From: Limnochorda sp. LNt
GTDB taxonomy: Bacteria; Bacillota; Limnochordia; Limnochordales; Geochordaceae
Assembly: GCF_035593265.1 (NCBI RefSeq)
Contig: NZ_CP141614.1
Location: 1-64,000, forward strand
Direction of reading: 5' to 3'
DNA: 64,000 bases
Shown here: positions 54,410-59,537 of the stretch, piece after piece
Layout: every line of letters starts with the position of its first letter
Position numbering within the stretch: position 1 is the first letter of the stretch
Program-made: the position numbers and the translations under genes
The notes under the pieces: model-generated
Database searches by the model: none
What the model saw: the letters and a program-made list of their open reading frames with translations, nothing else
What the model was told of the DNA's origin: nothing

Positions 54410-55540
54410 TTAGCCCGTGCGCCACGGCATCACTATATAGCGGTATCCAGGATCGCCGGCGATCCGGAAGGTGCCCTGGCGGGCAGGATCGCCCAGCTCC
54501 AGCTCTACCTCCTCCTCGTCGAAGGCCTTGAGAAACTCTTCCAGGAAGCGGGCCTGGTAGGCGACGGTGAAACCCGGCCCCTCGGCGTACGCCTCGACCC
54601 TCTCCTCTCCCTCGCCGGAGTCGGCCACAGCGCTGCGCAAGAGCACCTGGCCCTCCTCCACGGAGATCTGGACGACCGCGGGCCCACGGCGGCTCAAGAG
54701 GGCGACCCGCTGCACCGCATCGAGCAAGGAGGGCCGCCGGAACCGCACCCGGCTCGGGAGGTCGTCCAGGAAGACCTGCCGGTACGGCGGGAAGTTGCCC
54801 TCGATGAGGCGGGTGGTGAGGCGAGCGGTGGTCACCTCGAGCTCCGCCAGACGCTCGCCCAGGGAGAGGCTCACCGCGATGTCGGGATCCACCGAGGCGC
54901 ACATCCGCCGCATCTCCTCCAGCGCACGGGCCGGCAAGATGGCACGAGGGGAGAAAAGCCCCGCGTTGCCGAAGGGCGTGAGCCCGGCGATGGGGATCTC
55001 GCGGTAGGCGAGCCGTGAGCTGTCGGTGGCCACCAGCCGCAGGAGCCCCTCTTCGCTCTCGAGCAAGACGCCACTCAGCACGGGGCGCTGGTCCGAGACC
55101 GCGCTGGCGAAGCGACACTGCGTGATGGCACGTGCCAGGTCGCCTGCCGGCAGTTGCACCCGCCAACCATCGGCCAGCTGCGGTAGCTCCGGAAACTCGT
55201 CGGCCGCCATCGAGACCAGGGAGAATCGCGAGCCCCCGGCTCTCACCTCGAACACCTGGCCGTCGGCGCCCGACCGCAGGCCCACGTCCTGCCCCTGCAG
55301 CCGCCGCACCAGGGCCGAGAAGAGCCGGGCATCCACGACCCTCTCCCCCGGCTCCTCGACGAGGGCCTCCACGCCTGCCGAGACGGACATCTCCAGGTCG
55401 GTGGCGGCCAGCTCCAGGCGCCCGCCGGCGGCGTGGAGCCGGACGCCCCCCAGCACGGGCAGGTTCTCGCCGGTGGCGGCTGCCCGCTCGGCCAGGGCCA
55501 GGGCCGTGGCGAGGCGCTCACGAGCACATGTGACGATCAT
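54410..55540 (-). CDS. dnaN: DNA polymerase III beta sliding clamp
   Basis: This 376-residue protein has three repeated clamp domains. Marks include MIVTCARERLATALALAERAAATGENLPVLGGV, SGVLLESEEGLLRLVATDSSRLAY and the C-terminal GDPGYRYIVMPWR (with YxxMPxR clamp end). The ring tethers DNA polymerase and many partner proteins. It starts 321 bases after dnaA, a spacing that fits an origin segment in between. Confidence 0.97.
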   Translation of the reverse strand: MIVTCARERLATALALAERAAATGENLPVLGGVRLHAAGGRLELAATDLEMSVSAGVEALVEEPGERVVDARLFSALVRRLQGQDVGLRSGADGQVFEVRAGGSRFSLVSMAADEFPELPQLADGWRVQLPAGDLARAITQCRFASAVSDQRPVLSGVLLESEEGLLRLVATDSSRLAYREIPIAGLTPFGNAGLFSPRAILPARALEEMRRMCASVDPDIAVSLSLGERLAELEVTTARLTTRLIEGNFPPYRQVFLDDLPSRVRFRRPSLLDAVQRVALLSRRGPAVVQISVEEGQVLLRSAVADSGEGEERVEAYAEGPGFTVAYQARFLEEFLKAFDEEEVELELGDPARQGTFRIAGDPGYRYIVMPWRTG

Positions 55541-55861
55541 GGGCGGGATGGCTCCTCTCCGGTCGATCTGCTGAAGACGACGATCTGGTCCGACCTATCG
55601 GACCAAGGACCCCATGGCCAAGACAGTAGAGGTCCCAGTAAGGCCTGTGCAAAGAGTGGACAACGGCGGGCGTCCCGGTGCGACGCTCCTCGGCGGGGTC
55701 GGGAGCTGTGGAAGGACCGCTCGGCGCCACGTGGAGAGGGTGGGGACGGCGCGGCGGCGCGTCTCGAGACCGTCCGTGGCTGTGGGCAACGGGGGCGATC
55801 TGTCCACAGGATTTCGATGGTCGGTCACATCCTATCCACGCGATTCGCACCACGGTCTCGA
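55541..55861. other. dnaA-dnaN intergenic region, candidate part of oriC
   Basis: This 321-base stretch has several degenerate DnaA-box-like 9-mers: CTGTCCACA (55800-55808), CTATCCACG (55832-55840), and on the other strand TGTGGGCAA (55781-55789) and AGTGGACAA (about 55656). All have two mismatches to TTATCCACA. A relatively AT-richer patch lies around 55800-55850. It may be one arm of a bipartite origin. Confidence 0.6.
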
Positions 55862-57232
55862 TCAAGGGCGCGTGAGCCGCTGACGCAGGTGGCGCAGCAG
55901 ATCGGCGATGGCTGGGTCGCGGCGGGCCAGGCTCTGCACCTTGTCCACCGCGTGCAGCACCGTCGAGTGGTCGCGCCCGCCGAACTGCTCGCCGATGTGC
56001 GGGAGCGAGGCCTGGGTCAGTTCCCGGCAGAGGAACATGGCGATCTGGCGAGCCAGGGCCAGCTCCCGGGCCCGGCTCTTGCCCTTGAGCTGGGCGGGGG
56101 TGAGGCCGAAGTGCTCGCTGACGACGCTCTGGATGCGGTCGATGGTGACCGCACGGTGCTGCGACTCGGCCAGGTCCCGCAGCGCCTCGATGGCCAGGTC
56201 GAGGGTCGGGGGCGTGCCCGCCAGCCTCGAGGCCGTGGCCACCTTGCGCAGGGCCCCCTCGAGCACCCGGATGTTGGAGCGGATCACCTCGGCGACGTAG
56301 CGCAGCACGTCGTCGGGCATCTCGAGCCCGTCCGCCTCGCAGCGCTTGCGCAGGATGGCCAGGCGCGTCTCGAAGTCGGGCGGCTGGATGTCGGCCAGCA
56401 GGCCCCAGGCGAAGCGCGAGCGCAGGCGCTCCTCCAGCTTGGGGATCTCCGACGGGGGCCGGTCGCTGGAGAGGACGATCTGGCGACCCGCCTCGTAAAG
56501 CGTGTTGAAGGTGTGGAAGAACTCCTCCTGCGTGCTCTCCTTGCCGGCGGCGAAGTGGACGTCGTCGAGGAGCAGCACGTCCAGCGATCGGTAGCGATTG
56601 CGAAACTCGGGCATGCTGCGGCGCTGCAGCGAGTCGACCAGGTCGTTGGTGAAGGCCTCGGTGGTGACGTACAGCACCTTCATCCTGGGGCGGGTGCGCG
56701 CCAGCTCGTGGGCCACGGCCTGCATGAGGTGCGTCTTGCCCAATCCCACCCCGCCGTAGAGGAAGAGGGGATTGTAGGGGCCACCCGGGTTGGAGACCAC
56801 CCCCAGGCAGGCCGAGTAGGCGAAGCGATTGCCGTTGCCGACGACGAAGCTGTCGAAGGTGTAGCGAGGGTTGAGACCGATGGCGGCCGGGAGGGCCTCC
56901 TCGTCGGCCGGTCGCACCCCGTCGCGGGAGGCCGATGGGGGATCGATGGGCACGCCCCCGACCGACGGCGCGGGGGGCACCTCGCCAGGGGTGACCAGCT
57001 GCACCGAGCAGGGCCGGCCCGTCAGGGAGGAGAGGATCGCATCCAGGGCGCTGCCGTAGCGGGAGCGGACCCAGTCACGGGTGAACGGATCCGGCACCTC
57101 CACCAGCAGGCGGGGGCCGTCCATTGCGAGGGGCCGGGCCCCCTTGAGCCACGCGTCGAAGCCAGGGCTCACCCCCTCACGTTCGACGACGATCGAGACC
57201 GTGGTATGCCATAGGTCAGACAATGAGCCCAT
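55862..57232 (-). CDS. dnaA: Chromosomal replication initiator DnaA
   Basis: This 456-residue AAA+ protein has an N-terminal domain I (LSDLWHTTVSIVVEREGV), a variable linker, Walker A GGVGLGKTHLMQA, Walker B DVLLLDDVHF, sensor motifs and the domain IV DNA-binding helix-turn-helix with GGRDHSTVLHAV. ATG 57230-57232 has GGAGGG 6 bases upstream. Together with neighbouring boxes and the dnaN-gyrA and rpmH-parB arms, it marks the replication origin. Confidence 0.98.
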   Translation of the reverse strand: MGSLSDLWHTTVSIVVEREGVSPGFDAWLKGARPLAMDGPRLLVEVPDPFTRDWVRSRYGSALDAILSSLTGRPCSVQLVTPGEVPPAPSVGGVPIDPPSASRDGVRPADEEALPAAIGLNPRYTFDSFVVGNGNRFAYSACLGVVSNPGGPYNPLFLYGGVGLGKTHLMQAVAHELARTRPRMKVLYVTTEAFTNDLVDSLQRRSMPEFRNRYRSLDVLLLDDVHFAAGKESTQEEFFHTFNTLYEAGRQIVLSSDRPPSEIPKLEERLRSRFAWGLLADIQPPDFETRLAILRKRCEADGLEMPDDVLRYVAEVIRSNIRVLEGALRKVATASRLAGTPPTLDLAIEALRDLAESQHRAVTIDRIQSVVSEHFGLTPAQLKGKSRARELALARQIAMFLCRELTQASLPHIGEQFGGRDHSTVLHAVDKVQSLARRDPAIADLLRHLRQRLTRP

Positions 57233-57327
57233 CTTCTGCCCTCCAGGTCATTGGCCGTCGGCCCTCCGGGCCGACGCGGCCAGGCCTCTGACCGGGCCAG
57301 GCACGCCCCCGCGATGGTGATGCGCGC

Positions 57328-58230
57328 TCAGGCCAGCGAGTGGGGCGAAAGTCCGCCCGCCCGCTGGCTCAGCAACTGCTCGACAGCCGCCGCGCCCTCG
57401 GCAGTGAGCCGGCGCTTGCCGGACCCGTTGGGTGCGACCAGCCCCAGCCCCTCCAGGACCACCAGCTCGCGGAAGGCGGTGGTCAAGCTCATCCGGAGGT
57501 GCTGGGAGGCGGCGCTGGGCCCTATCTCTCCCAGGTCGGCAGCGAGGAGGAGCAACCGCCGCTGACGGGCCGTGAGAGCCTCGACGCCACGACGAGAAGG
57601 GGCGGTCGGGACGCAGGCCGGCGCCGCCGCCACGGAAGCCGCGGCCGAAGGGGCCGCCCTTCGCGGCGAGAGGGTGACGACGGTACCGCCGGCCAGGTTG
57701 TCGTCGATGCGCAGCTCCCCGCCGACGCGCTCCATCAACGCGGTCGCGATGGTGAGGCCGGAGCCCACGCCACGGATGTACCGGCGCATCTGCGCCGTGG
57801 CGGTGGTGAAGCCCGGGAGCAGGGCCCGCTGCTTATCGGGGATGCCGGGGCCCTGATCGGAGACGGTCACCGAGCCGTCGGGCGCGATGGAGACCGTGGC
57901 CAGCTGGAAGTGAGCGTGGATCAGGTTTTCGACCACCGCGACCACGGCCTCGGCCGGAACGGGGCTGCCCACATCCCTGACCCATTGCGCGCTGCGCCGG
58001 CAGGCCTCGACCAATAGCGCGCCCGTCTCGGTCGCGCAGACATCGTAGACGGCCGGCAAGCCCCCCTCGGGTGGGTAGACGGCCAGCCGCACGCTGAGCG
58101 AGGCCGAGGAGTCGCTGGGCTGGAGCCGGGCGGCGGGGGTGAAGGAGACCAGGCGCGCGTCGTCCGCGGCGTCCCTTGCCTCCACCGATGGAAATCGGAT
58201 GAGCGAGTGCGAGCGCACGGATGTCTCCAT
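57328..58230 (-). CDS. GHKL ATPase / winged-helix protein beside dnaA
   Basis: This protein has 300 residues from ATG 58228-58230. The middle part (about 90-205) is an anti-sigma or histidine-kinase-type ATPase without a phosphorylatable His: N box [11 protein letters not shown]1 box [11 protein letters not shown]2 box [13 protein letters not shown]. An Ala/Pro linker leads to a C-terminal winged helix ([17 protein letters not shown] ... [13 protein letters not shown]). The N-terminal 80 residues are unrecognised. Between dnaA and rpmH, inside the apparent origin region and transcribed with dnaA direction. It may be an ATP-switched DNA-binding regulator. No family name comes to mind with confidence. 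Confidence 0.75.
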
Positions 58231-58645
58231 GTCGGCGTCCCGGCCTCTTCTAGGCGCCTCCTTCGGGGGCGGCGAAAAGCTGAGAAAAGGTCGACAGGGC
58301 ACGGCACGCGGCGGGCCAATATCCACAATATCCCCGGGTTATCCACAGCTCGTTTTCGCCCCAGCAAGCCTCGACGGGGCCGCGCGAGCAGGCCCGCGGG
58401 CGCGAGGAGAGAAGGTCGTCGGGCTCGCACACCCCGTGAAAAGTGAAGGTCCGCGCGGCTCTCACAACGACCGTCCCCCATCCCCCTGCCCGGTCGGCGG
58501 CGCTTTTCGCACAGGCTACCCACAGCTTGTCGACGGGAGAGTGCACAGGCAGAGCCGGCCGCTCGACCGGGCAATCGTGAGTCTAAGAGGGAGGGGGGAG
58601 GCCAGGCAAGGGGTCCCAAGAGCCGGGGCGGCGGACGGGCAGGCG
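58231..58645. other. Intergenic region upstream of rpmH with DnaA boxes, candidate oriC
   Basis: A perfect DnaA box TTATCCACA lies at 58339-58347, a near match ATATCCACA at 58319-58327 and CTACCCACA at 58516-58524, all in the same direction. A locally AT-richer segment (58319-58347) is unusual for this GC-rich sequence. With the dnaA-dnaN region this forms a two-part origin around dnaA and its neighbour gene. No parS-like 16-mer was found here by eye. Confidence 0.7.
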
Positions 58646-58675
58646 TTGACGTTCCGAAAAGCCCAGGGCTATAAT
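58646..58675 (+). promoter_or_regulatory. rpmH-rnpA promoter
   Basis: TTGACG (58646-58651), 18 bases, perfect TATAAT (58670-58675). Transcription would begin near 58682, before both rpmH and the TTG at 58690. Confidence 0.85.
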
Positions 58676-58689
58676 CGAACCTGCCGCTT

Positions 58690-59265
58690 TTGGCGCCGAC
58701 AGCGTCTCATCACGCCAGAGGCCCCATCCGGGGTGGCTTCGGAGCATTTCGGAGGAGTTCGAAAGAGCATGAAAAGAACGTTCCAGCCGAAGCGCCGCCA
58801 TCGCCGACGGGTCCACGGGTTTCTCCGGAGGATGTCCACGCCTGGCGGGCGGAAGGTGTTGAAGCGCCGGCGGGCCAAGGGCCGGGCCCGCTTGACCGTG
58901 CGCTGAGCGGCCGGCGGTGGGGGCCAGGGCTCTACCGTCTGGTGGTCCGGCGCGACTTCGATCGGGTCTTTCGCTCGGGGCGGCGTGGGGCTACGCACCT
59001 GGTGACCGCATGGGCAGCGCCAGGGCCGTGTGCAGGTGTGCGGGTCGGCTTCGCGGTGGGCCGCCGGGTCGGCAAGGCGGTGACACGCAACCGCGTCCGC
59101 CGGCGCCTGCGGGAGGCGCTCCGGCTGGAGCTTGAGGGCGTGCGGCCCGGGACGGACGTGGTCCTCTCGGCGCGCCCGGGTTGTCGCGACGCCGAATTCA
59201 GCGAACTGAGGGAAGCGCTACGGACTGCACTGAAGCGAGCGGGCGCATGGGTCGGCTCCGCATGA
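58690..59265 (+). CDS. rnpA: Ribonuclease P protein component, frame overlapping the whole of rpmH; start unsettled
   Basis: The conserved core begins at [16 protein letters not shown] (about 58930) and includes [27 protein letters not shown], the RNR signature of RnpA; the end is at 59265. Between 58690 and the core the only ordinary start codon is TTG 58690; GTG 58942 would cut off the RL residues that align with other RnpA proteins. The frame stays open across all of rpmH, giving a 191-residue protein with an N-terminal extension, as known in Thermus. A CTG or other rare start after rpmH is the alternative. The last bases overlap yidD (ATGA). Confidence 0.85.
58769..58906 (+). CDS. rpmH: 50S ribosomal protein L34
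   Basis: This 45-residue basic protein begins [18 protein letters not shown] and ends [17 protein letters not shown], the classic L34 sequence. GGAGGAG at 58751-58757 is about 11 bases upstream of the ATG. It starts the rpmH-rnpA-yidD-yidC-jag operon from a strong promoter. It lies entirely inside the open rnpA frame. Confidence 0.97.
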
Positions 59266-59492
59266 GCGGGGGCGGTTCGCCTCTCGGGCGGGGTCTGGCT
59301 GCCGTGGTGGGCGTCTACCGGCGGTGGATCTCGCCCTGGACGCCGCCTGTCTGCCGCTTCTATCCCAGTTGCTCTGCCTATGCCGAGGAGGCCTTGGTGC
59401 GGCACGGGGCCGTAAAGGGGACGTGGCTCGCCCTGCGACGGATCGCCCGGTGTCATCCGTGGCACCCCGGCGGATACGACCCCGTCCCTTGA
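59262..59492 (+). CDS. yidD: Membrane protein insertion efficiency factor YidD
   Basis: This 76-residue protein has the YidD hallmark [28 protein letters not shown] and the ending [13 protein letters not shown], with conserved cysteines. ATG 59262 overlaps the rnpA stop as ATGA; ATG 59247 is also possible. It aids membrane protein insertion near YidC. Confidence 0.95.
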
Positions 59493-59537
59493 GGCGCGCT
59501 CCCAGGGGTCACGCGCAGAGAGGCGGTAGGGGCGACC

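Follow-up and report, generated by a model that had tools for sequence, protein, structure and literature searches.

The gene at 57328–58230 of the window (the whole 64,000-nucleotide stretch of Limnochorda sp. LNt DNA that was analysed) encodes a GHKL ATPase joined to a winged helix, and throughout its family it occupies an exclusive place directly before dnaA. The protein has two domains, intact ATP-site motifs and conserved recognition-helix and wing residues, and the gene has mostly been inherited vertically together with dnaA. We infer, with a probability of about one half, that the product regulates the dnaA operon or oriC by binding DNA under the control of ATP. In such a mechanism, the GHKL domain would be an ATP-binding switch that governs the winged helix, and the winged helix would act on the stretch rich in DnaA boxes that immediately precedes its own gene. 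Binding of ATP would alter either the pairing of the protein or the arrangement of its two domains, and with that its grip on the dnaA promoter or oriC; dnaA expression and/or orisome assembly would then be tuned to the state of the cell.

Domain architecture and predicted fold

The gene and the parts of its product map as follows:

57328–58230, minus strand: GHKL-winged-helix gene (300 aa; ATG at 58230, stop at 57328–57330)
57658–58107, minus strand: GHKL/Bergerat ATPase domain, residues 42–191 (Pfam HATPase_c, fold match, invariant motif residues)
57913–57939, minus strand: N box AVVENLIHA, residues 98–106 (residue 98 is Ala in the window protein)
57355–57597, minus strand: MarR/IclR/TrmB-like winged helix, residues 212–292 (recognition helix and wing conserved)

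A sequence-only reading of this DNA had proposed a GHKL ATPase, lacking a phosphorylation His and joined to a winged helix; all three points were borne out. Pfam HATPase_c matched residues 96–190 of the window protein (E 1.3e-11; 45.4 bits, cut-off 26.4). An AlphaFold2 model of the same protein, made from a 27-row alignment (mean pLDDT 80, pTM 0.55), has two confident domains with a disordered linker (195–208) between them; residues 1–40 are also disordered. Residues 42–191 of the model resemble GHKL ATPases, the best match being 3lmm_C (Z 15.2, 148 residues, rmsd 2.9; VIA-align), and residues 212–300 resemble MarR-type winged helices (2rdp, Z 13.6, rmsd 1.8, 84 residues). We also modelled a compact actinobacterial homolog (256 aa, mean pLDDT 85). 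Its GHKL domain matched 3lmm with Z 15.1 and its winged helix matched MarR-type folds with Z ~12–13; comparison of the predicted structure with SpoIIAB (1til) gave Z 11.4 over 127 residues (rmsd 3.0).

No histidine-phosphotransfer domain lies ahead of the ATPase: there was no HisKA match among 27 family members and no phospho-acceptor domain, and the window model begins with the Bergerat strands. A sensor histidine kinase was ruled out by this absence of a phospho-acceptor His and of a DHp/HisKA domain. A MarR family regulator proper, which would be recognised by its own dimerisation helices and a score above the Pfam cut-off, was likewise ruled out: the window protein gave no MarR match at E ≤ 1, and its best helix-turn-helix match was IclR, whose 14.9 bits fall short of the cut-off of 22. 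Weak Pfam matches to MarR/IclR/TrmB/Csa3-type winged helices recur across the family members. A defence-system reading was rejected, PADLOC having returned weak Csa3/CARF winged-helix matches alone (E 0.07).

Conservation of the ATP site and the putative DNA-binding surface

Residue conservation was read from 104 non-redundant homologs together with the window sequence. Across the 104 homologs, N102, H105, D125, G127, G129, G140, G154, G158 and G171 are invariant save in one truncated sequence, and the window protein itself carries the N, DxGxG and GxGxG/L motifs of the GHKL superfamily in an HATPase fold. In GyrB and SpoIIAB, the Glu at N minus 4 is the general base. That Glu is present as E98 in 100 of the 104 homologs, and most of the family therefore probably cycles through ATP hydrolysis; the window protein, in contrast, has Ala98. 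Three relatives from the same family of genomes share the Ala: L003 and L005, which are in the 104-homolog set, and L004, from its own sequence. A switch in the window's own family would therefore rely on binding and exchanging ATP. Judged by GyrB mutants of the E42A type, the comparison for Ala98, the window protein should bind ATP yet hydrolyse it poorly. This natural Glu-to-Ala change would let a switch that only binds ATP be compared directly with one that hydrolyses it.

In the winged helix, a recognition helix of the form S-x-[ST]-T-A-[FY]-R-[DE]-L and a GKR wing are conserved. The conserved positions are T251, R254, L256 and L259 in the predicted recognition helix and K272-R273 in the wing; conservation extends across phyla, with R254 in 99/104 homologs and R273 in 97/104. 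Distant Bacillota homologs share 54–59% identity with the window protein in the winged helix, against about 35–45% in the ATPase domain. The conserved reading surface argues for a DNA target that may itself be conserved.

The gene is not found apart from dnaA

Loss of linkage to dnaA in relatives had been named beforehand as a result that could refute the sequence-only reading, and linkage proved complete in 110 distinct genes. dnaA lies directly downstream and co-directional in 100 of these homologs, while at the remaining 10 the contig stops before dnaA would be reached; six of those contigs belong to assemblies whose first gene is dnaA. Adjacency was therefore 100/100 at loci with enough flank, and there was no counterexample among the 110. 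A search of 101 relatives produced strong full-length matches in several families, and a scan of GTDB r220 contigs produced 29 strong homologs; in both cases, all were beside dnaA where the contig extends there. The 29 come from Bacillota, Actinomycetes/Actinomycetota (including Candidatus Hakubella and Thermoleophilia) and Armatimonadetes (including CSP1-3). Many of the sampled genomes are MAGs, and single-contig or near-complete chromosomes (e.g. G000, G002, G703, G662 and G510) have the same arrangement.

The gap to dnaA is ~6–20 bp in about 25 loci and 30–120 bp in most others. The short gaps in relatives suggest one operon with the GHKL-winged-helix gene at its head; the gene is thus probably the first in the dnaA operon and would be co-transcribed with it.

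The origin of L193 (G641:C1:2216269-2222724) is rearranged, with the order recF(−), dnaN(−), gene(+), dnaA(+), rpmH(+), and the gene–dnaA pair is intact. At the Actinomycetota loci L154–L157, L159, L165, L172, L191 and L192, the gap to dnaA is about 200–490 bp rather than <120 bp, often together with a much longer linker between ATPase and winged helix, the frames reaching 524 aa. At these loci the long gap may have become the new site of the origin.

DNA of the surrounding origin region

The slot of the gene in the window is laid out as follows:

55541–55861: gap between dnaA and dnaN, the second candidate half of the origin (no DnaA box at 0–1 mismatch)
55862–57232, minus strand: dnaA (tblastn matches to dnaA of all relatives)
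57233–57327: gap between the GHKL-winged-helix gene and dnaA (95 bp; no promoter-like site)
58319–58347, plus strand: origin block with two DnaA boxes, ATATCCACA at 58319–58327 and TTATCCACA at 58339–58347, ~90–115 bp upstream of the GHKL-winged-helix gene
58646–58675, plus strand: sigma-A-type rpmH promoter, TTGACG-18-TATAAT, the second conserved element of the rpmH–gene gap
58769–58906, plus strand: rpmH (L34), divergent, at the far border of the slot

The reading frame is present between dnaA and rpmH, where it had been placed, and the remark that it lies outside the standard Bacillus block is supported. Past the gene, dnaA, then dnaN, yaaA, recF, gyrB and gyrA follow in the same direction; rpmH, rnpA, yidC, jag, rsmG, parB and soj diverge on the other side. 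GC skew switches from negative to positive at the place of the gene. The rpmH promoter is the sole promoter-like site in 55300–59000, and no Rfam match (RNA element) was found in 55000–59500.

A position between two DnaA-box regions had also been claimed. This held on the rpmH side, which has good boxes, but not for 55541–55861, the box-free half listed above. Although the window contains only three DnaA boxes with ≤1 mismatch, against 2.3 expected by chance, the pair at 58319–58347 is credible because it is kept in all four family members and because boxes are strongly enriched in the same gap across 81 loci. The word TATCCACA occurs in 60 of 81 non-redundant rpmH–gene gaps (1.0 expected), and the gene therefore borders the origin region. 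Footprinting of four same-family genomes left the DnaA-box block and the rpmH promoter as the only conserved blocks.

Read together with its equivalents in L003, L004 and L005, the block at 58319–58347 has the form TGTGGATAAC-C(T/C)GGGGATAT-TGTGGATAT and is almost fully conserved in the four genomes. It comprises three DnaA-box-like repeats with a spacing of about 10 bp, just upstream of the GHKL-winged-helix gene, and could possibly serve DnaA autoregulation of the operon.

An operator for the winged helix was sought by k-mer enrichment in the 81 non-redundant rpmH–gene gaps, raw and with DnaA boxes masked. No family-wide operator, palindromic or other, was found in these gaps. With the boxes masked, the enriched words left were the rpmH promoter (TTGACA...TATAAT) and a clade-limited CAGCTAG. 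The latter sits about 8–11 bp after a DnaA box (TGTGGATAA) in several clades (rpmH–gene gaps of L013–L018, L021, L022, L038, L049, L058, L116, L122, L124 and L137), and resembles what would be the GC-rich/DnaA-trio part of a basal unwinding system.

Distribution and inheritance

With phyla assigned from linked contigs, the family was found in 35 of 398 sampled Bacillota genomes at E ≤ 1e-20, nearly always in single copy, in 119/296 sampled genomes of Actinomycetota (the phylum of G470) and in 38/43 of the phylum of G459, which includes CSP1-3-labelled genomes. The same query, which matches in other phyla, found no member in Chloroflexota (0/151) or Cyanobacteriota (0/98), where divergent members might escape it. 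The three-phylum range may derive either from a common ancestor or from spread with origin blocks.

In the gene-less relatives that we compared (L194, L195, L197, L198, L200, L202–L206, L208 and L209), rpmH and dnaA are neighbours roughly 0.3–0.7 kb apart and the slot is empty. In three of them, L205, L208 and L209 (G006, G009 and G011; same order, family f4), the N-terminal region of DnaA is longer or interrupted, with a weak or split match to residues 1–117 of the window DnaA; the longer region may be an expanded domain II.

FastTree trees of the GHKL-winged-helix family and of DnaA were built for 89 loci. The two trees have 48 of 86 splits in common; among the 45 well-supported family splits, 32 are common to the DnaA tree and 3 are in conflict with it. 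The Mantel r between the two was 0.49, with a permutation maximum of 0.25. The shared splits and the Mantel correlation show that the gene has been mostly co-inherited with dnaA.

Proposed regulation of dnaA and the alternatives

A regulator of the dnaA operon or oriC is favoured by the complete adjacency to dnaA, the 6–20 bp gaps and an upstream gap rich in DnaA boxes, and equally by the invariant ATP motifs, the conserved winged helix with its MarR-like fold and the agreement of the tree with that of DnaA. Against it, the gaps hold no family operator, winged helices can also bind protein, and the gene is missing from 363/398 Bacillota and ~60% of Actinomycetota. From this absence it follows that the gene is not essential to replication control generally. 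In the main alternative, which is somewhat unlikely, the protein would be a direct partner of DnaA or the orisome that alters DnaA oligomerisation or ATP state, the winged helix being a docking or general DNA-binding module. Strict adjacency and co-inheritance suit a physical partner, as does the failure to find an operator motif in the rpmH–gene gaps, and the known Bacillus regulators YabA, Soj and SirA target DnaA directly (PMC5295017); however, what is conserved in the second domain is its recognition helix and GKR wing, a pattern that speaks for contact with a specific DNA sequence. The patchy presence, with many relatives lacking the gene, would also suit a passenger that is tied to dnaA by position alone, through origin gene dosage or an unbroken old operon, and has some other target. 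The dnaA–rpmH order is among the most stable in bacteria, so a passenger could last there. We nevertheless consider this improbable: other passengers relocate, yet 0/110 copies are away from dnaA, the L193 pair is intact despite reshuffled rpmH, dnaN and recF, and the gap measures just 6–20 bp in some lineages.

The ATPase domain also invites comparison with anti-sigma factors or partner-switch serine kinases of the SpoIIAB/RsbW type. The GHKL fold of the compact homolog does align (1til, Z 11.4) and the E-x-x-x-N motif agrees with the SpoIIAB N box, but DIP2311 is the closer fit (Z 15.1), the SpoIIAB model (TIGR01925) gives 23 bits where its cut-off is 135, and the general base is absent from the window protein. 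Furthermore, such kinases share operons with their targets, and no gene for a sigma factor or STAS antagonist is nearby; an anti-sigma role is thus very improbable. The suggested coupling to sporulation entry fared worse still. Using the Spo0A model with its curated cut-off on 28 bearers and nine gene-less relatives, Spo0A was above cut-off in the window genome and most Bacillota bearers, as a sporulation switch at the origin would have it, but nine of the 28 bearers fell below (G107, G111, G458, G460, G461, G470, G482, G578 and G703, including several Actinomycetota and one CSP1-3 genome) while all nine gene-less relatives were above. On these scores, a sporulation link as a general function was rejected, and we regard such a switch as scarcely credible.

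Replication timing outside E. coli and B. subtilis is largely open, and the known DnaA regulators are missing from many bacteria. A gene that occurs in single copy, stays with dnaA throughout three phyla and joins an ATP sensor to a DNA-binding domain is a testable candidate for initiation control; as it marks the origin slot, it could double as an evolutionary marker. More tentatively, the family may be an ancient class of replication-initiation regulator, in which an ATP-reading GHKL ATPase would act on the origin via a winged helix. The family would have passed down with dnaA in three phyla (Bacillota, Actinomycetota and that of CSP1-3) while disappearing from the model organisms, which would explain why classical genetics missed it.

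Comparison with known systems

NCBIfam, Pfam and PADLOC contain no model for the whole GHKL-winged-helix protein, and no description of the family was found in the open-licence literature; a report outside that scope is possible. A GHKL domain with a winged helix is a known kind of combination, and there is a real chance that this one represents a new class of initiation regulator. Among solved structures, the nearest fold belongs to DIP2311 (PDB 3lmm), a Corynebacterium diphtheriae protein with several domains, one of them a GHKL ATPase. A two-domain Foldseek alignment (E 1.5e-7 over 274 columns) points to a shared order, with the GHKL domain ahead of a C-terminal one. DIP2311 differs in its long additional N-terminal stretch, the match beginning at its residue 235, and is only ~15% identical to the window protein. 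It is COG2865-type, and no dnaA linkage is known for it.

SpoIIAB/RsbW share the GHKL fold without a phospho-His domain and, with most homologs, the E-x-x-x-N N box; SpoIIAB differs in having no winged helix, and the window protein is far below the cut-off for that family, has no sigma partner nearby and has Ala for Glu. Residues 212–300 have a fold like that of MarR/IclR/TrmB/Csa3 regulators (Z ~12–13.6), but the winged helix is joined here to an ATPase rather than to a ligand domain or MarR dimerisation helices. The known initiation regulators of Bacillus are YabA, Soj/ParA, SirA, Spo0A, DnaD and DnaB, with no GHKL protein among them (PMC5295017). The window protein would act on the same step as YabA, Soj/ParA, SirA, Spo0A and DnaD, and Soj is likewise ATP-switched, but none of these five belongs to the GHKL ATPases or is encoded immediately ahead of dnaA. 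DciA, a helicase operator encoded in the replication operon of many phyla, is a similar case of a small replication gene recognised partly via its conserved recF/gyrB neighbourhood (PMC5109545), although it is a different protein in a different slot, between recF and gyrB.
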